Shown here piece after piece: positions 9,840-26,946 of a DNA stretch of 33,933 nt. The translations under genes and the position numbers were made by a program. Within the stretch, counting starts at the first letter, position 1, and every line of letters begins with the position of its first letter. Below the pieces are notes generated by a model, which ran no database searches, had not been told where the DNA came from, and worked only from the letters and a program-made list of their open reading frames with translations. This stretch comes from Acidimicrobiia bacterium (lineage in GTDB: Bacteria; Actinomycetota; Acidimicrobiia; Spongiisociales; ZC4RG35), in contig JARDZU010000005.1 of the NCBI GenBank assembly GCA_029240695.1, forward strand, positions 1 to 33,933. Reading direction: 5' to 3'.

Positions 9840-10534
9840 TGCGCATCCTCGTTGTCGAGGACGAGCAGGATCTGGCGTCGGCGATAGCTGACAGCCTTCG
9901 CCGCGACGGGTACGCGATCGACATCGCGCCCACCGCGACGTCGGCGATGCGCCTCACCTCGGTCAATTCCTACGACGTCGTCTGCCTCGACCTGAATCTT
10001 CCCGACGGGGACGGGCTCGACGTGTGCCGGCAGGTGTTGGCCGACCCGGCTCGGTCGTACGACCTGGCCCCGGCTCCAAAGATCCTGATGCTGACCGCCA
10101 GGGGTGGTATCGACGACCGGATCCGAGGGTTGGACGAGGGTGCCGACGACTACTTGGTGAAGCCGTTCTCGTTAGGGGAGCTGAGCGCTCGAATCCGTGC
10201 GCTGCTCCGCCGTGACACGTCGACGGGCAGCTCGATCATCGCCTACGCCGGAATCGAGATGGACACCGCCCGCCATGAGGTCACGGTCCACGGAAGGCCA
10301 GTAGCCCTCACCGTGAAGGAGTACGCACTCCTCCGCTGGTTTCTCCTGCATCCCGAGGAGGTGCACAGCGCCGAGCGTCTCCTCGAGCACGTTTGGGACG
10401 AGCACGCCGACCCGTTCACCAACACGGTGAGGATGACCTTGTCCAATTTGCGTCGGAAGTTGTCATCGGTCTCGGTTGCGCAGCTGATCGTGACCCTTCC
10501 CGGACGTGGCTACATGTTGAAGGCCGATACATGA
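9839..10534 (+). CDS. OmpR/PhoB-family response regulator
   Basis: REC domain (VVEDEQDL, CLDLNLPDGDG, DDYLVKPFSLGEL) plus winged-helix Trans_reg_C. Confidence 0.96.
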   Translation: MRILVVEDEQDLASAIADSLRRDGYAIDIAPTATSAMRLTSVNSYDVVCLDLNLPDGDGLDVCRQVLADPARSYDLAPAPKILMLTARGGIDDRIRGLDEGADDYLVKPFSLGELSARIRALLRRDTSTGSSIIAYAGIEMDTARHEVTVHGRPVALTVKEYALLRWFLLHPEEVHSAERLLEHVWDEHADPFTNTVRMTLSNLRRKLSSVSVAQLIVTLPGRGYMLKADT

Positions 10535-11604
10535 GCGGGTCCAGAGTTCGATTGGCGATGGTCCTGATGGCGCCTGCCGTCCTCATGGCGTTCGTGGTCA
10601 TGGTGGTGACGGTCGCGCTCCTCGCGAGTCACGAGCCGTGGGCCGACGCCCGGACCGGCATCGCCCAGGTCGGTGACGACCTGGTGGTGGTAGTGGCCGA
10701 AGAAGCGTCGCTCGACGGGCTCATCGATTCCGGTTTGTTGGCGCCTGCCCTGGCCCTGTTCCCGGCGCTCGTCGTCGCCTGGGTCGTTGCCGGTCGGGTG
10801 AGACGGGTTGTCGCGCAGGCCCGCGCGGAAGTCGAGGCCGCAGAAATCGAGCGTCGCAGCCGGACCCAGGAAGTCGTCCACGAGCTACGCACTCCGCTTG
10901 CCGTGATGGGCACGAATCTCGAGCTCGCGGCAATCGAGGCCGGGCACGAGCCCGGAGCTGCGGGATACATCGATGCCGCCCGCCGGGCCGTGAGCAGGAT
11001 GACGCGAACCGTCGACGACCTCGCCGGCCACGGCGGGCTGGCGGTCGAGCAGGGAAACGACCCTGTCGACCTGGCCGACCTCGCCGAGTCGGCGGTGGCC
11101 GAGCACTTTGGCCCCGCCCGTGCACGCGGGGTGAATGTGGAGCTCGTCGGGACATCTCGTACGACCGTTCCCGCGGTCGACCCGGCCGCGGTGCGGATCG
11201 CGATCGGGAACTTTCTCAGTAACGCGGTACGCATGGCGCCCCAGGGGTCGTCGGTTGGCATCGATTGGGGTCGGCTCGATGGCTGGGCCTGGATTGCGGT
11301 GATCGACGAGGGCCCCGGACTGGCTCCTCATCTTCAAGCCCGTGTCTTCGAGAGGGGATGGCAAGGCCATCACGAGCGCGAGCGTGGTACGGGGAATGGT
11401 GAGGCCGGATTGGGGCTCACCATCGCCCGTCAGCTCACCGAAGCCCAGGGCGGGGCGGTGACTGTCGAATCCGAAGAGGGCGGAGGCGCCGTTTTCACTG
11501 TCTGGTTGCCGGTCGAGATCGGCGCTGACCCGAGGGCGGTCATCGCACCCGATCGAATCCACGCCATCGCGCGACCCTGGCTCGAGGCCTCGCTGACCGC
11601 TTGA
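10531..11604 (+). CDS. Sensor histidine kinase
   Basis: ATG 10531 overlaps RR stop; two N-terminal TM; EVVHELRTPLAVMGTNLELA H-box; NFLSNAVRMA, DEGPGLAPH, GEAGLGLTIARQL ATPase motifs. Confidence 0.94.
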   Translation: MSGSRVRLAMVLMAPAVLMAFVVMVVTVALLASHEPWADARTGIAQVGDDLVVVVAEEASLDGLIDSGLLAPALALFPALVVAWVVAGRVRRVVAQARAEVEAAEIERRSRTQEVVHELRTPLAVMGTNLELAAIEAGHEPGAAGYIDAARRAVSRMTRTVDDLAGHGGLAVEQGNDPVDLADLAESAVAEHFGPARARGVNVELVGTSRTTVPAVDPAAVRIAIGNFLSNAVRMAPQGSSVGIDWGRLDGWAWIAVIDEGPGLAPHLQARVFERGWQGHHERERGTGNGEAGLGLTIARQLTEAQGGAVTVESEEGGGAVFTVWLPVEIGADPRAVIAPDRIHAIARPWLEASLTA

Positions 11605-11660
11605 CGGGCCTTTTAAAGGTCATCCCATATGTTGCGGCGGTTGACCAAACGGAGGATGCC

Positions 11661-12821
11661 TTGACCCAACTCGACCCCAGCCCGCCCAAGCTCCGCCCCA
11701 GACGGCGGTCATGGCGCGACCTTCCGGCTTCGCCGCCCATCGGCGACCCGCACCCGCCAATCATCGAGGAGCAACCGGTGGTGGCGCCGACACAGCCTGC
11801 GGAAGTGGCGGAGAAGACGCCCAGAAGCGGTCTGCGCATCTTCACCTATGCGCTGACGGTGGTTGTGGTGGTACTGGTTGGCGCCGCGGTCTGGCTCTGG
11901 CAGCGCGAAGTGCCGGTCGCCACGACACCGACGGTGGCTGCCGAGGAGGCGGAAGCCGGGAGTCCGGGCGCGGTTGCAGCAGCCCTGGGTCCGGCCGTGG
12001 TCCATATCGAGATCCTCGGCGGGTTGGAGGCCGGGGGAGGGGTCGGCTCGGGTGTGATCTACGACTCTTCAGGGCTCGTCCTGACCGCACATCACGTTGT
12101 CTCATTCTCAGATGAGGTGACCGTCATGACCTCCGACGAGCGTTCGTTCAGCGGGCGGGTGGTGGGGCGGATCCCCGAGCGTGATCTCGCCATCGTTGCT
12201 CTCACCGATGCGACCGATTTGGTCGCGGCGACCATCGCCGAGCCTGGGACGGTCGAAGTAGGGGAGCCGGCCATCGCGATGGGGAGCCCGTTCGGGTTCC
12301 AGCAGTCCGTCACTGCCGGGATCATCTCGGGCCTCGACCGTGAGCTGGAGACGCCGATGGGCACTCTCACCGGGCTCATCCAGACAGACACACCGATCAA
12401 CCCGGGCAATTCGGGAGGCCCGCTCGCCGACGCCGAGGCCAAGGTCATCGGCATCAACACCGCGATCGCCTCCATGTCTGGCGGTAACGACGGTGTCGGG
12501 TTCGCCGTGCCCGTCGAGGACTTCGCGTCGCTGATGGAAGAGGTCGAGGCGAACGGCGGCGTCGAGGCCCCGACCGTGCCCGCCCCGGAGGATGCCGGTG
12601 GGTTGGGAGGCCTGGTTCCCGGCCTCGAAGACCTTCTGCCCGGGCTAGATGACCTATTCGGCCCCGAAGGACCGGGAGGTCTGGAGGATCTTCCCGGCCT
12701 GGAAGAGATGCTGGAGGAGATGTTCGGCACCACCGACATCCCGCCGGAGCTGCAACAGCTCCTGGAGGAGCTGCTTGGTGTCCCGGCCCCGGCGGCGCCA
12801 GAGGAGGGAGAAACCTCATGA
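11661..12821 (+). CDS. S1C-family (HtrA/DegP-like) membrane-anchored serine protease
   Basis: LTAHHVV, RDLAIVAL and TPINPGNSGGPL triad motifs; N-terminal TM after a Pro-rich cytosolic tail; TTG start 11661 after GGAGG (ORF open from 11601). Confidence 0.9.
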   Translation: MTQLDPSPPKLRPRRRSWRDLPASPPIGDPHPPIIEEQPVVAPTQPAEVAEKTPRSGLRIFTYALTVVVVVLVGAAVWLWQREVPVATTPTVAAEEAEAGSPGAVAAALGPAVVHIEILGGLEAGGGVGSGVIYDSSGLVLTAHHVVSFSDEVTVMTSDERSFSGRVVGRIPERDLAIVALTDATDLVAATIAEPGTVEVGEPAIAMGSPFGFQQSVTAGIISGLDRELETPMGTLTGLIQTDTPINPGNSGGPLADAEAKVIGINTAIASMSGGNDGVGFAVPVEDFASLMEEVEANGGVEAPTVPAPEDAGGLGGLVPGLEDLLPGLDDLFGPEGPGGLEDLPGLEEMLEEMFGTTDIPPELQQLLEELLGVPAPAAPEEGETS

Positions 12822-13861
12822 CCACCCGTCAATTCACAACGAGGAGCGACGCGGCTCAGCCAGGACTCCACGGGGTCCAACTCCGTGAGGTGATGGCCGA
12901 GTTGCAGCGGGTGATCGTTGGCCAGGACCGAGTCCTGGAGCGCGTCCTGGTCGCTCTCATGGCCGGTGGCCATTGCCTTCTCGAGGGCGTGCCCGGCTTG
13001 GGCAAGACACTCACGGTGTCCACATTGGCAAAGACCCTCGGGGGCACATTCAACCGGATCCAGTTCACACCCGACCTGTTGCCCTCGGACATCGTTGGCA
13101 CCCGGATCTACCGGCCGTCGACCGAGCGGTTCGATGTGGAGTTGGGCCCCGTCTTCGCCAACTTCGTCCTGGCCGATGAGATCAACCGGGCCCCGGCCAA
13201 GGTCCAGTCAGCGCTGCTCGAGGTGATGGGGGAGCGTCAGATCTCGATCGGAGGCACCACGTATCCCCTGCCGCTGCCATTTCTCGTCCTTGCCACCCAG
13301 AACCCGATCGAATCGGAGGGTGTGTACCCCCTGCCGGAGGCTCAGCGGGACCGGTTCCTGATGCGAATCCCGGTGGATTACCCGACACCCGACCAGGAAC
13401 ACGAGATCGTCGACCGTTCACGACACCAGGCATCCGGGTCACCGGTTGCGCTTCTGTCGACCGACGATGTGGCCGGGCTTCAGGCGGCGGCGTCAGCGGT
13501 GTACGTCGACCGGGCGGTGCAGGACTATGCCGTCAGGCTGGTGCTCGCCACCAGGAACCCTGCCGAGCACGCCGTGGCCATCGACGGGCTGCTCGCCTAC
13601 GGCGCCAGTCCCCGAGCCAGCATCGGGCTAATCAACGCCGGTAGGGCTCTTGCCCTGCTGCGGGGTAGGGATCATCTCCTCCCGCAGGACGTCTACGACA
13701 TTGCCTACGACGTACTCAACCACCGGCTGGTGCTGTCCTTCGACGCGGTCGCCGACGGGGTGACCGTCGACGATGTGTTGATCGAGGTGCTGACAACAGT
13801 GGTCTCACCGCGTGTCTCGTCCTCCCAGCTCGCCGGGAACCGAGCTCCGCTGGCAGTCTGA
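12818..13861 (+). CDS. MoxR family AAA+ ATPase
   Basis: GHCLLEGVPGLGKTLTV Walker A, ADEINRAPAKVQSALLEVMGERQ, LATQNPIESEGVYPLPEAQRDRFLM; ATGA overlap with protease. Confidence 0.97.
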   Translation: MTTRQFTTRSDAAQPGLHGVQLREVMAELQRVIVGQDRVLERVLVALMAGGHCLLEGVPGLGKTLTVSTLAKTLGGTFNRIQFTPDLLPSDIVGTRIYRPSTERFDVELGPVFANFVLADEINRAPAKVQSALLEVMGERQISIGGTTYPLPLPFLVLATQNPIESEGVYPLPEAQRDRFLMRIPVDYPTPDQEHEIVDRSRHQASGSPVALLSTDDVAGLQAAASAVYVDRAVQDYAVRLVLATRNPAEHAVAIDGLLAYGASPRASIGLINAGRALALLRGRDHLLPQDVYDIAYDVLNHRLVLSFDAVADGVTVDDVLIEVLTTVVSPRVSSSQLAGNRAPLAV

Positions 13862-14832
13862 TGCAGCTCAGACGATCCGGGCCCCCCAAAGGGGTCGAGC
13901 CGATCCCGCGCACATCGCGTCTCACGTCGCCGTCGCAGGTCCCGATCGAGCGGCTGCGGCTCACGGTGCTTCGCCGGCTGAACGGCCTCCTCTCCGGCGA
14001 TCATGCCGGGCTCTTCCCGGGCCACGGGACCGAGAGGGGCGAATCCCGCCCCTACGTGCCGGGCGACGATCCCCGTTACATCGACTGGGCAGTGACAGCC
14101 CGGACCCATGACACACACGTCCGAGACATGGTTGCCGACCACGAGCTCGATGTCTGGCTGATCCTCGACTCCTCGTCGAGCCTCGGTTTCGGCACGGGCC
14201 GAGCCACGAAACACGAGGTTGCCTGGTCCGCGGCCGGTGCCTTTGCCCTGCTTGCCTCGAACGGTGGAAACCGGGTGGGGGCGGCTCGGTCGACCAACCG
14301 CAAGGGACGTTCTCGTCCGCTTCTCATCGCCGCCCGTGGTGGCTCGGCACATGCGGGCGGAGTTCTCACTGCGCTCCTCGACGCTCCTGAGGACGGGGAG
14401 ACCGGCGACCTCGGTCGAGCCATCGAGATGGTCGGCCAGGTCGCTCACCGTCGAGGCATGGCAGTAGTCATCTCCGATTTCCTGGGATCTCCCGACTGGG
14501 AGCGCCCCCTGCGGGCCATGTCCAAACGACATGAATTGATCGCCGTCGAGGTGGTGGATCCCCGGGAGGTCGACCTGCCAGATGTCGGGTTGATCTCGGT
14601 GGTCGATCCCGAGACGGGGAGACGTCGACTGATCGATACGGCCAAGGATGGCGTTCGCGAGCGTTACGCCGAGCTGGCCGAGGAGCGCCGGGCCGATGTC
14701 GCGGACCGTCTCAAGTCGTGTGGCGCCGATCACCTGGTCCTGCGAACAGATCGCGATTGGGTTCTCGACTTCGTGCGTTTCGTCTCAGGCCGCAAGGCGA
14801 GACTGATGTCGGCGGGGAGGTCGGGACGATGA
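13861..14832 (+). CDS. DUF58 domain-containing protein
   Basis: GESRPYVPGDDPRYIDWAVTARTHDTHVRDMVADHELDVWLILDSSSSLGF; starts at the MoxR stop (TGATG). Confidence 0.95.
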   Translation: MQLRRSGPPKGVEPIPRTSRLTSPSQVPIERLRLTVLRRLNGLLSGDHAGLFPGHGTERGESRPYVPGDDPRYIDWAVTARTHDTHVRDMVADHELDVWLILDSSSSLGFGTGRATKHEVAWSAAGAFALLASNGGNRVGAARSTNRKGRSRPLLIAARGGSAHAGGVLTALLDAPEDGETGDLGRAIEMVGQVAHRRGMAVVISDFLGSPDWERPLRAMSKRHELIAVEVVDPREVDLPDVGLISVVDPETGRRRLIDTAKDGVRERYAELAEERRADVADRLKSCGADHLVLRTDRDWVLDFVRFVSGRKARLMSAGRSGR

Positions 14833-15815
14833 GTGATTTCGGGTTTCTCTCGCCTGGCCGTCTGGCCATTCTCATCCTGCCCGTGGCCCTCACGGTCGGA
14901 TACCTTGTGCTGCAGGCGAGGCGTCGTCGTTATGCGGTGCGGTTCACGACGGTCGAGATGCTCGACCACGTGGCGCCGGACCGTCCCGGATGGCGCCGCC
15001 ATCTCCCGGCCATCGGGCTGATTGTTGCCGCCGTGGTGGCGACCATGGCCTTCGCCCGCCCGGTCATAGCCGGAGAGACCCGTGAGTCGACCCAGCTCGT
15101 GGTTCTGGCAATCGACACATCGATCTCAATGGAGGCCGAGGACGTTTCGCCGTCGAGGGTAGACGCGGCCCGAGAGGCTGCCGGGGCCTTCCTCGATGCG
15201 GTGCCCGAGGGTGTCGCGGTCGGGGTCGTCGGATTCGACGGCGTGGCCAGGAACCTGATCTCTCCGACCACCCGCATCGACGCGGTGCGCCGAGTCATCG
15301 ACGGAGCCATCAACCACAGTGGCCTGGGCGAGGGAACCGCCATCGGCGAGGCCGTGTTCCTCGGTATCGACGCCATCGAGGCTTCCGGCAGCGAGACAGA
15401 TGACGAGTCGGCTACTTCTGACGAGGCCGTCGGCACGATCGTCGTCCTCTCCGATGGTGAGACGACTATGGGTCGCACCAACGATGAGGCTGCCACCGCG
15501 GCCCGCAGTGCCGGCATTCCGGTTCATACCATCGCCTTCGGGACGGACGCCGGGACGATCATGGACCCATTCGAAGGCGAGGTCCCGGTGCCGGTCAACG
15601 AGGAAGCCCTGGCCGAACTGGCCCGCCAGACCGACGGCAAGGCACTCACCGCGGCGTCGGTCGAGCAGCTCAGCCAGGTCTATGAGGATCTCGGGCGCTC
15701 CGTCACCGTCGAGAAGGAACAAGTCGAGATTGGTGACTGGTTTGCCGGCGCCGCTCTGGCCCTCCTCAGCTTGGCCGGTGTGGGCTCTCTGGTTTGGTTC
15801 GGCCGGCTTCCCTGA
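14829..15815 (+). CDS. VWA domain-containing membrane protein (BatA-like)
   Basis: N- and C-terminal TM flanking a VWA domain with MIDAS (LAIDTSISMEAEDVSPSR); ATGA overlap with DUF58 gene. Confidence 0.94.
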   Translation: MSDFGFLSPGRLAILILPVALTVGYLVLQARRRRYAVRFTTVEMLDHVAPDRPGWRRHLPAIGLIVAAVVATMAFARPVIAGETRESTQLVVLAIDTSISMEAEDVSPSRVDAAREAAGAFLDAVPEGVAVGVVGFDGVARNLISPTTRIDAVRRVIDGAINHSGLGEGTAIGEAVFLGIDAIEASGSETDDESATSDEAVGTIVVLSDGETTMGRTNDEAATAARSAGIPVHTIAFGTDAGTIMDPFEGEVPVPVNEEALAELARQTDGKALTAASVEQLSQVYEDLGRSVTVEKEQVEIGDWFAGAALALLSLAGVGSLVWFGRLP

Positions 15816-20212: not shown

Positions 20213-23200
20213 CTAGTGGTTTTGCCAGGCTTCTTCCACCGCGGAGAGAGTCTCTTCGGGCGACTTGGTCGGCTCGGAGACGTATTCGGTCAGTTCGGTG
20301 AGCAACGGGCCGAACCCGATTTCATAAGGCATCAGGTCGGAGCCGTCGAATCGAAACATGTCGGCGTCGACCGACGCGGCTAGTTGTCCTGCGATCGAAT
20401 TGATGATTGGGTCCTGGAACAGGTCGGTGTCGAATCCACGGTGTGGCGGCACGAAGTCGGAGGTTTGGGTCTGGGCCCGGAGCGACCCCCACTCGGGACT
20501 GGCGATCGCCCTCATCACCGCCCGCACCTCCGGCCGATCGGTGAGGGGCAGCGCGATGTCTCCGGCGCCTAGCACCGCTGGGTCATAGGCGGTGGCGATG
20601 CGTGGGAAAGGTGCGACGGCCATCGGCGCTTCGCCAAAGAAGGTCCTGGCGAAGGTGGGCGCCGGGGTGAGCCAGCATGGTGGAGGATCCTCCCCGGCGA
20701 GGGAGTACGCCTCATCCCAGCCCGTCTCTTCGATCAATCGTGAGGTCGAGTAACCCGGGGTATGAACCAGTGTGCCCACCTTCTCGAGGGCGGCGACCAC
20801 GGATGGGTGGTCGAACGCGACCTGGTGGGTGACCCAACGATCGTAGAACTCGGGGCCTTCCGACAAGAGCACGACTGTCTCCAGCCAATCGGTCGCCGGC
20901 CATCCGGTCGTATCGAACGAGAAGACACCCAGACACCATGGTGTCTTGCCATCCGCCACTATCTGGTCGCTCAGGGACATGAGCGACTGCCAATCGGCCG
21001 GTTCCTCATATCCGGCGCTTTCGAACGCGGCCTCGTTGTACCACAGCAGCGATTTCGCCCCGATGTTGGACCACACACCGTGGTGGCGGCCGGCGACCGA
21101 GATGAGAGACGTCAGATACTCGCCGTACGACTCTTGGAGGTACTCCTCGCCCAAGTAGGCGCCGATGTCGATGAGTGGCCTGTCCGCCGCGATCTCCGAG
21201 ATCGCGGAGGGGGCCGGGATTATCGAGATCTCGGTCGGGTCCCGGCCGAGCGGAACATCGTTGGGGTTCTCGTCGAAGGGATGGGCGACGAATCGCACGT
21301 CGATGCCCAGGTCGGCAGTCAGCTCGGTGAGCTCGAGCTCCGCTCCTTGTGCCATGACACCATTCCAGGAGCCGGTGATCTCCACTGTGGTGCCCTCTAG
21401 GGGTCGAGCGTCGCCGCCTCGTCCCATGTATCGGTCCATTCCACCGGCAATCTCGAGGTCGGCGACCGGTTCCATGAGATCCGGGCACCCGTCCGTTGCG
21501 AAGTATCGGGCGCATTCGTTGGGGGTGAGCGAGCGATTTGCAGCCTTCTGGCCGAGTTCGACCAGGTCGGCCGGCGGGAGGGCGAACACGCCTCGTGCAC
21601 CGGTGGTGTGAAGACGGACCGCTACCGGTGTGCCGTCGTCGTCGGCCGGATACTGAACCGTCGAGTCCTGAAGGACCCAATGCAATGCGTCGACAGCCTC
21701 CGGTAGGGCGGAGCCGGTTTCCTCAGTCGCCCTGATGGCTGCAATGGCTAGCAGGGTCGAGAGCTGAGGGTCGTCGGCCATGACCAGCGCCGATTCTGCG
21801 ACCAGTGATTGGGCTTGGTCGTTGGCTGCAAGCTCGTTAGCCAGGTCGCGCGCCCGTTCGCCCTGACCATATGCCAGCAGCGCAAGAGCCACGACCAGGA
21901 CAGACACGGCTCCGAGCCCGACCAGCGCGCGGGTCCTGCGGCGAAGCCGTGATCCCTGCAGCTGCCCGTCTCTGGCGATCTTCTCCCTCTGCCGCTCCTC
22001 CTCAACGGCGGCATCAAGGAAGGCCTTCTCCACCGAGGTGAGACGTACCGGGGCATCGGCGACCCAGGTCTGATAGCGGGCCAGGCTGGCACCGGCCAAC
22101 AGGAAATCGGGGTTCCTCTCCCCGTCGATCCACTCTGCCGTGGCCGTGGTCAAGCGCGCCCGGGCTCGGATGTCGGCTCGCGCCTCGTCGATCCACGACC
22201 CGAGACGTGCCCAGGCCCCGATCAGGCTCTCATGCGCGATCTCCACGGTCGGAGCCCTGCTGGCGGGGTCCCGGTCGAAGCTGAGCAGACGATGACGGGC
22301 AAATGCCCGGAGCATGTCGTCGACTTCGCCTTCCGTCCCTTCGATGCTCTTCACCTCCGAGAGGAGGGCCCTGCGTCGGGTGTCCCCGCCACTCTCATTC
22401 AGAGATACGAGACGAAGGAACACCTGTTTCGCCGCGGCCCGCCCGTCGGGGCCCAAGGCGCCAAACAACGATTCGGCCCTGGTCACAAGCGCTCGAGTCA
22501 GGCCGCCCATCGACTCGTACGCGGCCGCAGTCATCGTGGTCCCGCGTCTGCTGTCGAAGAGCTCGGTGAGCGTGTACTGGAGCATGGGCAGCACGCCCGG
22601 CTCAGAGGTGGCGTCGGCGGTCAGGGCTGCCAGCAACGCGGGCTCGACTACTACGTCCACCGATTCGGCCGGGCGCGTGATGGCTCGCTCTAGCTCAGGG
22701 TGGGTCATCGGAGTGACCAACTCGGTGTGGTCCCGTAGGAGCTCGCCGATCCCCATCGTGGCGAGCGGGTGGTCGTAGAAGTCGGCGCGTAATGTGATGA
22801 CGATCCGGAGCCTGCTCTGCGGATGGGTGATGGCGTCCACCAGTGCCTCGGTGAAGGCCTGACGCTCTTGATCCCCGGTCATGGTGTACAGCTCTTCGAA
22901 CTGGTCGACCACCAGGACGAATGGTGATACCTCGTCGGGCAATAGCCCCGGAATCGACCTGCGCAGACCGGATGGTTGGGCAACCAATTGCTCGAGCAAG
23001 GTGGGGGGCATCGACACGGCGACGCTGGTAAGAGCGCGCTCCAGGCTGTCGAATGGGTGCGAGCCGGGAGTCATGGTGGCGATAAACCACGAGTCGGCGC
23101 CGGGGACACCGCCGGCTCTGAGTGCAGGTACCAGACCGGCGTGGACGACGCTTGACTTGCCGCTTCCGCTCGGCCCGACCACGGCCAGGAATCTGTTGAG

Positions 23201-24814
23201 CGGGTCTGGCCCGCCGAGCCTGGTGAGCATTCGCTCCACCAGCCGCTCACGCCCGAAGAACTCCCCAGTGTCGGCCTCGTCGAAGGGCACCAAGCCCTTG
23301 TACGGGTTTGGCACATCCACGACTGCTGCCTGACCCTGCGTGGCCCCGACCGCGGATCGGAGGGCCTCAGCGAACTGCGAGACCGTGCGATACCCGCGGG
23401 GATTGCCCATGATGGCGGCGAAGCCGGTCTCGAGCTGAGCAGTCAGCTCGGTGAGTGTCCCATCGGCGCCGACCATGAGCTGGGCGGCGCAGGTGGCCAA
23501 CGCTTCGATGTCGTCGGTGGGTGTGGAATTGGGCCCGGCGCTCATGCCGAAATCCGTGATGAGGGGCCTGGCGTCGTTGTCGAGGAGCACGTTATCCAGG
23601 GTCACTCCGCCATGGACGATGCCCAGTTCGTGCGCACGGGCCAGGGGAAGCGCGAGCTGGCTCACGATCTCGCAAACCCTGTCCGCAGGCGTCGGGCCTC
23701 GGGCCAGGAGCGAGTGGAGGCTGCCCCCGGTGATCAGCTTCTCGACCAGGATGGCTCCGTCGGGCTCCCGCCAGAAATCGAAGATAGGCACCACTTGTGG
23801 AGAGTCGAGCTCGGCGATCGACCTCGTCTCGGCTTCGAACCTCCGGACGAAAGCCGGGTCGTTTGCCACCTCAGCCCGGATCACCTTGACGGCGACCTCT
23901 CTGCCGATGGCGGGCTGATAGGCGCGGTAAACGTTCCCGTACCGGGTCTTGCCAAGGCTCGTTCTCAGCTCATATCCACGCACTGCCAGGCCTGGGTCGG
24001 TGCCGCCCTCGTTTTGACGACCTTGCACCGGCTCCAGCCGGGGATCGCCGGTGAGGATCTGCTCTTCCAAGTCCCGCAAGCCGGCCGACGGCTCGATACC
24101 CAGCTCCGACCCCAGATGGTCCCTCAGTTGACCGTAGGCACGGAGGGCCTCGGCTTGACGGCGGGACCGATAAAGCGCCGTCATGAGCAGTGCGGTGAGC
24201 TGCTCCCGATAGGGGTTTTCACGCACCAGGCCTTCGAGCTCTCCGACCAACTGATGGCTCAATCCACGGGCGAGGTCGGCCTCCACGCGGCCTTCGACGG
24301 CATCGAGACGCAATGAGTTGAGACGGTGGATCTCGGTCTGGGCGAACGACTCGTAAGAGAAGTCGTCGAGCGCCCGCCCTCGCCACATCGACAGGGACTC
24401 GGCGAACACGAGTGACGCAGCCGAAGGATCGTGAGATGCCAACCCGCGTCCTTCCGCCAGTAGACGCTCGAAAATGGCGACATCCACCTCCTCCGGGTCC
24501 ACTTGGAGTAGATAGCCGGGAGCCCTGGTCAGCAGCAACGTGCCCTCGGAGCGTGCCGGCCGGTCGGGCTCGAGAGCCGTCCTCAGGTTGGAGACATGGA
24601 CCCAGAGGGCGTTCTGCTTGTCGGCGCCGCCCTCACCCCACAATTCATCGAGAATGCGATCGGTGGACACGACCTGATTGCGATGGATCAGGAGCAGGGC
24701 AAGGAGCGATTTCTGTTTGTGGCTCCCCAGGTCGACCGTCTCGCCGGCGCGTCGAAGCTCGAGTGGCCCGAGGACATTGAACTGAACACCGCGACCGGAC
24801 ACCCACACCTCCAA
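20213..24814 (-). CDS. Multidomain BTAD/SARP-type regulator + degenerate protein kinase + nSTAND NTPase + TM + extracellular solute-binding domain
   Basis: aa ~10-255 winged helix + BTAD; aa ~280-490 kinase-like; aa ~503-900 STAND (VVGPSGSGKSS, VLVVDQFEELY); aa ~963-983 TM; aa ~1143-1533 ABC sugar-binding-protein-like. Annotated start is TTG; GTG at 24802 after GGAGG is an alternative. Confidence 0.88.
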   Translation of the reverse strand: MEVWVSGRGVQFNVLGPLELRRAGETVDLGSHKQKSLLALLLIHRNQVVSTDRILDELWGEGGADKQNALWVHVSNLRTALEPDRPARSEGTLLLTRAPGYLLQVDPEEVDVAIFERLLAEGRGLASHDPSAASLVFAESLSMWRGRALDDFSYESFAQTEIHRLNSLRLDAVEGRVEADLARGLSHQLVGELEGLVRENPYREQLTALLMTALYRSRRQAEALRAYGQLRDHLGSELGIEPSAGLRDLEEQILTGDPRLEPVQGRQNEGGTDPGLAVRGYELRTSLGKTRYGNVYRAYQPAIGREVAVKVIRAEVANDPAFVRRFEAETRSIAELDSPQVVPIFDFWREPDGAILVEKLITGGSLHSLLARGPTPADRVCEIVSQLALPLARAHELGIVHGGVTLDNVLLDNDARPLITDFGMSAGPNSTPTDDIEALATCAAQLMVGADGTLTELTAQLETGFAAIMGNPRGYRTVSQFAEALRSAVGATQGQAAVVDVPNPYKGLVPFDEADTGEFFGRERLVERMLTRLGGPDPLNRFLAVVGPSGSGKSSVVHAGLVPALRAGGVPGADSWFIATMTPGSHPFDSLERALTSVAVSMPPTLLEQLVAQPSGLRRSIPGLLPDEVSPFVLVVDQFEELYTMTGDQERQAFTEALVDAITHPQSRLRIVITLRADFYDHPLATMGIGELLRDHTELVTPMTHPELERAITRPAESVDVVVEPALLAALTADATSEPGVLPMLQYTLTELFDSRRGTTMTAAAYESMGGLTRALVTRAESLFGALGPDGRAAAKQVFLRLVSLNESGGDTRRRALLSEVKSIEGTEGEVDDMLRAFARHRLLSFDRDPASRAPTVEIAHESLIGAWARLGSWIDEARADIRARARLTTATAEWIDGERNPDFLLAGASLARYQTWVADAPVRLTSVEKAFLDAAVEEERQREKIARDGQLQGSRLRRRTRALVGLGAVSVLVVALALLAYGQGERARDLANELAANDQAQSLVAESALVMADDPQLSTLLAIAAIRATEETGSALPEAVDALHWVLQDSTVQYPADDDGTPVAVRLHTTGARGVFALPPADLVELGQKAANRSLTPNECARYFATDGCPDLMEPVADLEIAGGMDRYMGRGGDARPLEGTTVEITGSWNGVMAQGAELELTELTADLGIDVRFVAHPFDENPNDVPLGRDPTEISIIPAPSAISEIAADRPLIDIGAYLGEEYLQESYGEYLTSLISVAGRHHGVWSNIGAKSLLWYNEAAFESAGYEEPADWQSLMSLSDQIVADGKTPWCLGVFSFDTTGWPATDWLETVVLLSEGPEFYDRWVTHQVAFDHPSVVAALEKVGTLVHTPGYSTSRLIEETGWDEAYSLAGEDPPPCWLTPAPTFARTFFGEAPMAVAPFPRIATAYDPAVLGAGDIALPLTDRPEVRAVMRAIASPEWGSLRAQTQTSDFVPPHRGFDTDLFQDPIINSIAGQLAASVDADMFRFDGSDLMPYEIGFGPLLTELTEYVSEPTKSPEETLSAVEEAWQNH

Positions 24815-24843: not shown

Positions 24844-24860
24844 CTTAAGCCCGGCTTAAG
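24844..24860. promoter_or_regulatory. Perfect 17-bp palindrome CTTAAGCC-C-GGCTTAAG in divergent intergenic region
   Basis: 8-bp arms, 1-bp centre, between 24814(-) and 24904(+). Confidence 0.6.
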
Positions 24861-24903
24861 CCCTCGCGAACCCGAGGAAAGTCGGCCAATCAACGGTGTG
24901 GCC

Positions 24904-25500
24904 ATGTCGGTCACACGCATACTTGTAGTGGGGTTGTTGCTGTCGGGCCTGTCGGGTGGCTGGCCTGCGCCGGCTACGAGCCAGCTTGCAGCCCTTTCGG
25001 CGCAGGAAGCCCCATTCGACCTAAGCGGCTTCAGAGATGATGCTGACGTTGCTCTGGCCCGGTGGGCCTTCGATCGCTTTGATCAGGCCGAACTCGAACT
25101 GCCAGCTCTTTCACTGTCATTCCACGACGAGCGGGCGGCGTGTGAGGGCCATGTCGGTTACTACCGCTCGGGCGCTCCCGCCAGCATCGACATTTGTGGG
25201 TTCAACTGGGACCGCTTCCTCGTGACTCCGAAAAAGACGATCCTCCACGAGCTGGCCCACGCCTGGGCTCATCAGACACTCGACACCGAGACCCGGAATC
25301 GGTTCCTCGATCTCCGAGGGCTCGACACCTGGCAGGACAAGTCGGTGTCATGGGAGAAACAGGGCATCGAGCACGCCGCCGAGGTCATCGCATGGGGTCT
25401 CATGGACGAGGATCTCTTTCTCACCTCGATCGGGGAGACCGACGCCGTCCTACTCGCTGAGGCGTTCGTACTGCTCACAGGCAGGGAGTCTTTGAGGTAA
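24904..25500 (+). CDS. Secreted putative zincin-like protein with HExxH motif
   Basis: Signal peptide (VTRILVVGLLLSGLSGGWPAPATS), TILHELAHAWAHQTLD; ORF open from 24898. Confidence 0.7.
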   Translation: MSVTRILVVGLLLSGLSGGWPAPATSQLAALSAQEAPFDLSGFRDDADVALARWAFDRFDQAELELPALSLSFHDERAACEGHVGYYRSGAPASIDICGFNWDRFLVTPKKTILHELAHAWAHQTLDTETRNRFLDLRGLDTWQDKSVSWEKQGIEHAAEVIAWGLMDEDLFLTSIGETDAVLLAEAFVLLTGRESLR

Positions 25501-25546: not shown

Positions 25547-26371
25547 TCAGCGGGAGTCCTCCAGCCTGGCGAGGAACTCGGGAACGTGTTCACTCCAGAG
25601 AGCCAAGGTGTCGGGCTCGATGTAAGCCGTGTCCTCCATCACGGACCAGTCGGCTGGATGGTTGTCGATCATCCATTCTTCAAAGAGTGCCATGGCCTCG
25701 TCGTTGTAGCCATCATCCGTGAACATGTTGTTGACACTGGTGATCTTGCCGTCCTCGATGGTGAAGAAGTAGAAGTTGCCGGTGCCGGGTTCGGTACCGG
25801 CGGCCCGGGTGATGCTGTCGGAAATGACATATGGGCACCGCACCTGCGACCCGAGCTCAAAGCATGCATCGAACTCGTGGGTAGTACCCATGACTCGCTT
25901 GTACTCCATGTAGGCCGGGAAGTTCTCGGCCGTGTCCGGCCAAGTGAGGAACGCGACATCATCGGCGAACAACGACATAACCGTATCGACGTCATAATCG
26001 CTCAGCGCCGCCACGAACCGCTCGGCTATCTCCACGGGTGTGTTGGCCAAATCTGGCGCCGGTTCCCGGGTGTACACGGCCCCGATGATCCCGATTGCGA
26101 TCACGGCGGTCAGGACTGCGGGAACAAAGGCCGGGCGCCGTCTGATCGGGCGGCTAGACGCACCTGATCGAAACGCCTCTTCGGATCTGGCGATTTCTTC
26201 CAAAGCCGTCGGCTCCGGCCGATCGGTCGTCTCGGTCGTGCGACCCTCCTTGATGGAGTAGACGTCGCGGAGGAGGCGACGGGACAGCTCGTCGTCGAAC
26301 AGCCGCTCGAGATGTCGATCTCGGGTGATCAGGTTGGCCCGACGGACTCTTGCCTCTAGCTCGACGCTCAT
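25547..26371 (-). CDS. Membrane protein with cytosolic N-terminus, one TM and extracytoplasmic NTF2/SnoaL-like domain; candidate anti-sigma factor
   Basis: TM AFVPAVLTAVIAIGIIGAVY; ERFVAALSDYDVDTVMSLFADDVAFLTWP NTF2-like; 4-bp overlap with ECF sigma gene. Confidence 0.7.
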   Translation of the reverse strand: MSVELEARVRRANLITRDRHLERLFDDELSRRLLRDVYSIKEGRTTETTDRPEPTALEEIARSEEAFRSGASSRPIRRRPAFVPAVLTAVIAIGIIGAVYTREPAPDLANTPVEIAERFVAALSDYDVDTVMSLFADDVAFLTWPDTAENFPAYMEYKRVMGTTHEFDACFELGSQVRCPYVISDSITRAAGTEPGTGNFYFFTIEDGKITSVNNMFTDDGYNDEAMALFEEWMIDNHPADWSVMEDTAYIEPDTLALWSEHVPEFLARLEDSR

Positions 26372-26946
26372 GTTCCACCGCCTCTCGTAGCAACTGGTTG
26401 GGTCGCACGTCTTTTCATGAATCTCTTAGGATCCAGCTCACGCGCCAATCTCTGCTTGGCGCGGGAGTACCGCTGGTCAACTGCATCGCGGGAGATACCG
26501 AGCACCGTCGCGATCTCGCCGGGGGAGAGCTCCTCCCACAGGTTCAACAGAATGATCTCCTGATCGGTCCGGCTCAGCCGGGACACGGCGTCGATCACTT
26601 CACGGTCCTCTTCGTTCCTGAGCAGTTGCTCATCTGGCATGGGAGCCCAGGCACGATCTCGGCTGGCTCGCTCCAAGAGGCGCGCTCGTCGCCCGGCGCT
26701 TCGCCGCTGATTGGCGAGGACACGAAAGGCCACACCGATCAGCCAGGCTCGGGCATCGTCGGCGGCCGGGACGTCGTCGATGCGTCTCCAGGCGACAACG
26801 AAGACCTCCGCTGCGGCGTCCCAGGCGTCCCATCGTGATACACGTCGGGCGCAGTAGGCCAACACGGCGCGATGATGGGCGACGTAAAGCCGCTCAAAGG
26901 GGACATCCCTGCCGGAAATCTGGGCCGGCGCTGAGTCTTCGGACAT
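26368..26946 (-). CDS. ECF-family RNA polymerase sigma factor
   Basis: Region 2 (FERLYVAHHRAVLAYCARRVSRWDAWDAAAEVFVVAWRR) and region 4 (LSRTDQEIILLNLWEELSPGEIATVLGISRDAVDQRYSRAKQRL). Confidence 0.95.
   Translation of the reverse strand: MSEDSAPAQISGRDVPFERLYVAHHRAVLAYCARRVSRWDAWDAAAEVFVVAWRRIDDVPAADDARAWLIGVAFRVLANQRRSAGRRARLLERASRDRAWAPMPDEQLLRNEEDREVIDAVSRLSRTDQEIILLNLWEELSPGEIATVLGISRDAVDQRYSRAKQRLARELDPKRFMKRRATQPVATRGGGT

Follow-up and report, generated by a model that had tools for sequence, protein, structure and literature searches.

How information about molecules outside the cell reaches a promoter is in bacteria usually a matter of several proteins, since outside nutrients usually need a sensor kinase and a response regulator, or a transporter and a regulator; STAND proteins are mostly regarded as cytosolic sensors. 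The locus described here raises the question whether a single polypeptide can span this distance. A first-pass annotation of the window (the whole stretch of 33,933 nucleotides that was analysed) had proposed a transmembrane one-component sensor, in which an extracellular binding domain controls a STAND switch linked to DNA binding. Anatomy, homology, the topology signal and a matching operator support this proposal well; ligand binding, control of the NTPase by that binding and DNA binding are the steps that we infer from them. Beyond that proposal, the analysis revealed a paired gene for a secreted HExxH protein, an 11-bp direct-repeat operator and interchangeable sensor domains.

The reading frame has the coordinates annotated before (20213-24814) and lies on the minus strand. 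Counted from TTG 24814 it comprises 1533 codons, a length that is best taken as an upper bound. The probable start is GTG 24802 (~1529 aa), because a GGAGG is located 5 nt before it, with a spacing common to the two closest relatives (L004 and L005), where a TTG with GGAGG occupies the equivalent position. Residue numbers throughout follow the 1533-aa count. The domain order is OmpR-type winged helix, BTAD, kinase-like domain, nSTAND1 NTPase, one transmembrane helix, linker and a C-terminal solute-binding protein (SBP) fold (Table 1).

Table 1. Features of the fusion gene, the shared promoter and the divergent gene, with positions in the window.
Feature	Position	Strand	Remarks
Fusion gene	20213..24802	-	~1529 aa from the probable start GTG 24802; in-frame TTG upstream at 24814
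GGAGG ribosome-binding site of the fusion gene	24808..24812	-	5 nt before GTG 24802
OmpR-type winged helix (Trans_reg_C), residues 31-102	24509..24724	-	Pfam; AF2 model vs AfsR SARP 8k60
BTAD, residues 110-254	24053..24487	-	Pfam, 1.1e-39
Pseudokinase, ~residues 275-490	23345..23992	-	HRD = HGG, no activation segment/APE; optional in family
nSTAND1 NTPase, residues 504-902	22109..23305	-	Pfam PF20703; Walker A 545-555, Walker B 633-643
Single transmembrane helix, residues 963-981	21872..21928	-	Preceded by RLRRRTR; 6 K/R on N side
Extracytoplasmic linker, residues 985-1138	21401..21862	-	dpQLxxLLA helix and GVFALP...LTxxEC...CP motif
C-terminal SBP domain (SBP_bac_1, sugar-type), residues 1139-1533	20216..21400	-	Pfam and AF2 fold
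Candidate direct-repeat operator CTTAAG-N5-CTTAAG	24844..24860	.	11-bp period; shared divergent promoter
Secreted HExxH/EHAAE protein, putative metallopeptidase	24898..25500	+	GTG 24898, ATG 24904; 200-aa ORF opposite the fusion gene

Separate genes could have been joined by an assembly or gene-calling error, and the window indeed comes from a draft genome of 282 contigs. Such an artefact is ruled out by full-length homologs in independent draft genomes and in a genome assembled as one contig of 5.56 Mb, and the dN/dS of 0.12 over the entire fusion length also speaks against it, leaving this explanation a negligible probability. Within the genus dN/dS ranged from 0.07 to 0.21 across the domains, indicating purifying selection on every one of them. 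The annotated single polypeptide is thus real and retained in homologs.

For the N-terminal half, a Pfam profile search found Trans_reg_C, BTAD and nSTAND1, in agreement with the annotated SARP/BTAD winged helix and nSTAND module. The nSTAND1 match is strong (1.8e-112, 377 bits against a cut-off of 27.1), and its Walker motifs are intact and almost invariant in the family. As in large SARPs, the winged helix is followed by a BTAD and then by a STAND NTPase C-terminal to it. In an AlphaFold2 model of the cytosolic part (pLDDT 84; pTM 0.46, too low to read the inter-domain arrangement), the SARP part matched the SARP domain of AfsR in its transcription complex (8k60) with a TM-score of 0.88, and the kinase-like part matched mycobacterial PknI. 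The protein is not AfsR proper: the NCBIfam equivalog NF053617 scored 146 bits against a cut-off of 1430, and the sensor consists of a transmembrane helix and an SBP, with no TPR.

The annotated protein-kinase-like fold is present, in a degenerate form that the family can dispense with. The Pkinase match at residues 281-430 covers only positions 1-150 of the 263 in the profile. In 3/3 members of the genus HRD is changed to HGG and the activation segment is missing, while DFG is kept; outside the genus most family members retain HGD. An active kinase in the window's genus is ruled out by these two losses. Five fused copies lack the domain altogether (L049, L051, L053, L101 and L102). Its dN/dS of 0.15-0.21 is the highest among the domains (0.07-0.15 for the others) and well under one.

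The single transmembrane helix was correctly annotated, and every fused homolog has one helix at the same location, flanked N-terminally by 4-8 basic residues in a positive-inside pattern. The C-terminus was confirmed as a sugar-type SBP of the two-lobed kind. SBP_bac_1 matched at residues 1170-1350 (1.2e-9, 39 bits against a cut-off of 26), and AlphaFold2 modelled residues 985-1533 with high confidence (33 sequences; pLDDT 91.9, pTM 0.91). A Foldseek search of the PDB with this ectodomain model placed sugar SBPs on top, the first being AcbH (target TM-score 0.81). The nearest unfused SBPs are ordinary exported lipoproteins with a lipobox, and an invariant cysteine pair (C310/C396 of A1) is common to them and the fused SBP. 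A cysteine pair in the linker is conserved across the fused copies. A cytosolic SBP is unlikely given the conserved helix, the charge pattern, the exported kin and the conserved cysteines.

Whether this domain binds a ligand of its own has to be weighed, since in the window's genus the SBP has lost some of the residues that its kin conserve (RQASF, FWTGM); because of this loss, ligand binding may be altered or lost there. The SBP might bind nothing, or dock on a ligand-loaded transporter or another partner, and the protein would then sense the state of transport. Its kin do work with ABC permeases, and the fused SBPs have long branches in the tree and show variation at conserved positions. Against this, the motifs KSxxWY, GWxxTDW and RFDxSDLM are retained and no ABC permease was found among the 20 window ORFs scanned, and we regard sensing of transport as distinctly improbable. 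The same scan bears out the annotated lack of a separate transporter for the window itself; elsewhere in the genome a separate lipoprotein SBP is present (G000:C23), so that the claim does not hold in full. AcbH-type SBPs of ABC transporters (PDB 3oo6) share the ectodomain fold. Unlike such secreted lipoproteins serving a permease, the SBP studied here is tethered by a transmembrane helix to a regulator.

A search with the extracellular half found the fusion in 12/395 genomes of the class. In two genomes of the same genus the fusion is ~80% identical and its neighbours are conserved; kinase-less fusions of ~1310 aa occur in two genomes of another class, of which one is the single 5.56-Mb contig. 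In one genome (G363; L047:4441-19576, plus strand) three fusion paralogs of ~1625-1650 aa each lie in tandem. A homolog of 1876 aa (L056:9677-15304, plus strand) has ~250 extra residues beyond the SBP domain that match no Pfam family.

Related Actinomycetota proteins of the type SARP-(kinase)-nSTAND1-TM-WD40 (L008, L105, L161) share the chassis, the transmembrane helix and the linker ends, and differ in having a WD40 propeller where the fusion protein has the SBP. In these relatives the linker is split, with the helix before the propeller and the EC...CP part after it; indeed, the GVFALP...LTxxEC...CP motif also terminates them. In the SBP type both pieces are joined and the SBP follows. The SBP therefore appears to have taken the place of the propeller, a direction suggested by this arrangement of the linker. 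No HExxH neighbour was found at the WD40 examples of other classes (L104, L105, L107) within the stretch examined. The STAND tree, with weak deep branches, does not group the SBP types together, and thus repeated swapping of sensors is likely; with the same weakness of the deep branches, the SBP tree requires 3 changes for the fusion and the STAND tree 6. Other outside parts also occur. In one SARP-nSTAND1-TM protein (L159:3607-7488, minus strand) the outside part is PnrA/Bmp, and in another (L156:9555-13640, plus strand) it is PnrA together with SBP_bac_3; both have an HExxH gene nearby.

The gene opposite the fusion gene encodes a protein with a signal-like N-terminus and two invariant cysteines. 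H117, E118, H121, E158 and E162 are invariant in 10 sequences, giving an HExxH motif and a possible third acidic ligand, and the protein is best described as a putative metallopeptidase of the secreted type. No Pfam family passed its cut-off (best M78, 17.7 bits against 22) and no credible PDB sequence match was obtained, so that assignment to a known peptidase family was rejected. The gene adjoins the fusion gene in all kinase-bearing copies with a visible flank (the window, L004, L005, L007, L047, L052, L054, L055 and L056); among all fused copies, the flank was out of view at L049 and L050. It also adjoins one kinase-less fusion (L051) and lies beside the near relatives L147 and L153; none was found by the kinase-less L053, L101 and L102, the latter two from another class. 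The family occurs in 43/395 genomes of the class and in 4/297 of the phylum. Among 20 further copies examined, 13 have a large SARP gene close by, and one (L144) repeats the L007 locus. The family is often multi-copy, with up to 7 members per genome in the window's class.

A candidate operator is located in the promoter shared by the two genes, and in the window each start codon is ~40 bp away from it. SARP sites consist of direct repeats with a spacing of 11 or 22 bp (PMC10936776), and the 11-bp spacing is that found here. The best 11+11 match in the window was 10/11, a value reached in 0/500 shuffles. The exact sequence CTTAAG-N5-CTTAAG is found once per genome, always at the fusion/HExxH locus, in eight genomes (G000, G066, G078, G219, G168, G314, G339 and G232), of which G339 and G232 joined the set after their sites were seen; it is absent from 18/18 comparison genomes of the order. 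Three fusion-bearing genomes (G363, G308 and G276) lack the exact sequence and have different or weaker repeats. Other pairs carry another repeat sequence at similar places, GTTGAGA in L052 and GCCAGAT in L150, and no repeat was detected at L053, L101 or L102. In L056 (G314) the two genes are not divergent, the HExxH gene being located downstream of that for the regulator, and each promoter has its own 11-bp repeat. The direction of the repeat is unreadable because CTTAAG is its own reverse complement, and no clear -10 is seen at the canonical 8 bp. A wider regulon in the own genome was rejected, as no second operator was found genome-wide even with one mismatch allowed. Judged by sequence and spacing, CTTAAG-N5-CTTAAG is a putative SARP-type operator for the fusion protein. 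Another HExxH gene, next to an AfsR-like SARP, is preceded by three 11-bp repeats of the GCCAGATAGCC type (L150:7755-7790); their sequence is different and their spacing the same as that of the CTTAAG repeat.

Taken together, we lean towards a membrane receptor that is itself a transcription activator, switched in an AfsR-like manner and acting only on its own gene and that of its peptidase-like neighbour. A small ligand would close the outside SBP domain, a relative of lipoproteins feeding sugar ABC transporters, and the resulting change would pass through the one transmembrane helix to the nSTAND1 NTPase. Until ATP is bound, the NTPase would keep the N-terminal SARP module inhibited, in the manner of AfsR and MalT. 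In AfsR the protein is held back by its own NTPase and sensor, ATP binding relieves this autoinhibition, and the SARP domain binds its repeats as a side-by-side dimer (PMC10936776). Freed SARP modules of the fusion protein, dimerized in the same manner at the membrane, might bind the two 11-bp repeats and recruit RNA polymerase. Regulation of an adjacent promoter fits an activator that, like CadC, is tethered to the membrane (PMC5430869). Expression of the receptor itself would rise, and the secreted HExxH protein, raised from the divergent gene, would be the main output.

The HExxH protein could instead belong to the signal path, acting on the ectodomain or on a peptide sensed by the SBP, and the operator would then balance both proteins. 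The tight pairing across several genera, also with other large SARPs, would fit this, as would the location of both proteins' action outside the membrane and the presumed autoregulation of the pair. However, among the related large SARPs, which include a WD40 type (L161), the family also adjoins TPR-type regulators without a predicted transmembrane helix (L148, L150, L154), whose sensor would be out of reach. A role as output is therefore favoured, and we consider a role as input unlikely. The pair might also act in conflict or defence, the SBP detecting a molecule of an invader, with a toxic peptidase as the output. STAND proteins whose sensors have been swapped are frequent among defence systems, and a putative peptidase is the output. 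But at its effector end the receptor carries a transcription activator that has a candidate operator of its own, the HExxH protein is secreted, and the scan of 20 window ORFs turned up no recognisable defence genes, which makes a defence function very improbable.

The receptor-activator favoured here has partial counterparts in several known systems. AfsR, a large SARP of Streptomyces coelicolor, likewise combines an OmpR-type winged helix and BTAD with a STAND NTPase switch and an 11-bp direct-repeat operator; it differs by its NOD and TPR sensor and its phosphorylation by separate kinases (PMC10936776), whereas the fusion protein has an inserted pseudokinase, an nSTAND1 NTPase and a membrane-tethered extracellular SBP. 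CadC/ToxR activators also have a winged helix inside, one transmembrane helix and a sensor outside in one chain, but contain no NTPase switch and no BTAD, both of which intervene here, and their sensor domain is unrelated (PMC5430869). In the GlnH-GlnX-PknG system of Corynebacterium an SBP in the periplasm likewise passes its signal through the membrane to a regulator in the cytosol, with three separate proteins and a real kinase in place of one chain ending in a transcription factor (PMC9769921). Large SARPs, nSTAND1 proteins, SBPs and membrane-bound activators are each already known; for the combination SARP-nSTAND1-TM-SBP no account was found in the literature searched (open-licence PMC papers).

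We tentatively propose, at somewhat less than even confidence, that these proteins represent an undescribed class of receptor-transcription factors of Actinomycetota. In this class the extracellular sensors (sugar-type SBP, PnrA/SBP_bac_3, WD40) would be interchangeable on one SARP-nSTAND1-TM chassis. For several of them a single unique operator would link the receptor to a paired secreted HExxH protein whose family is likewise undescribed, and extracellular proteolysis would be the response to a ligand outside the cell. Least expected among these findings is the HExxH family that is paired with the regulator and has a single operator. The whole path from ligand pocket to promoter appears to be contained in one chain that uses a STAND (NLR-type) ATPase as its switch; if this is true, outside molecules may be turned directly into gene expression without partner proteins. 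Since the protein joins a transmembrane helix to a classical small-molecule-binding ectodomain, opening of a STAND switch is directly testable with a soluble ligand, and the unique operator with its single paired target offers a ready two-gene reporter system.

Two other gene groups of the window were observed. At 25547-26946 (minus strand), adjoining the HExxH gene, a sigma-70 family (ECF-like) factor precedes a protein that combines a TM-like stretch with a SnoaL-like domain, an arrangement conserved in L004. At 10393-15812 (plus strand) genes for a histidine kinase, a trypsin-like protease, a MoxR ATPase, a DUF58 protein and a VWA protein lie in a row that is conserved in L005.
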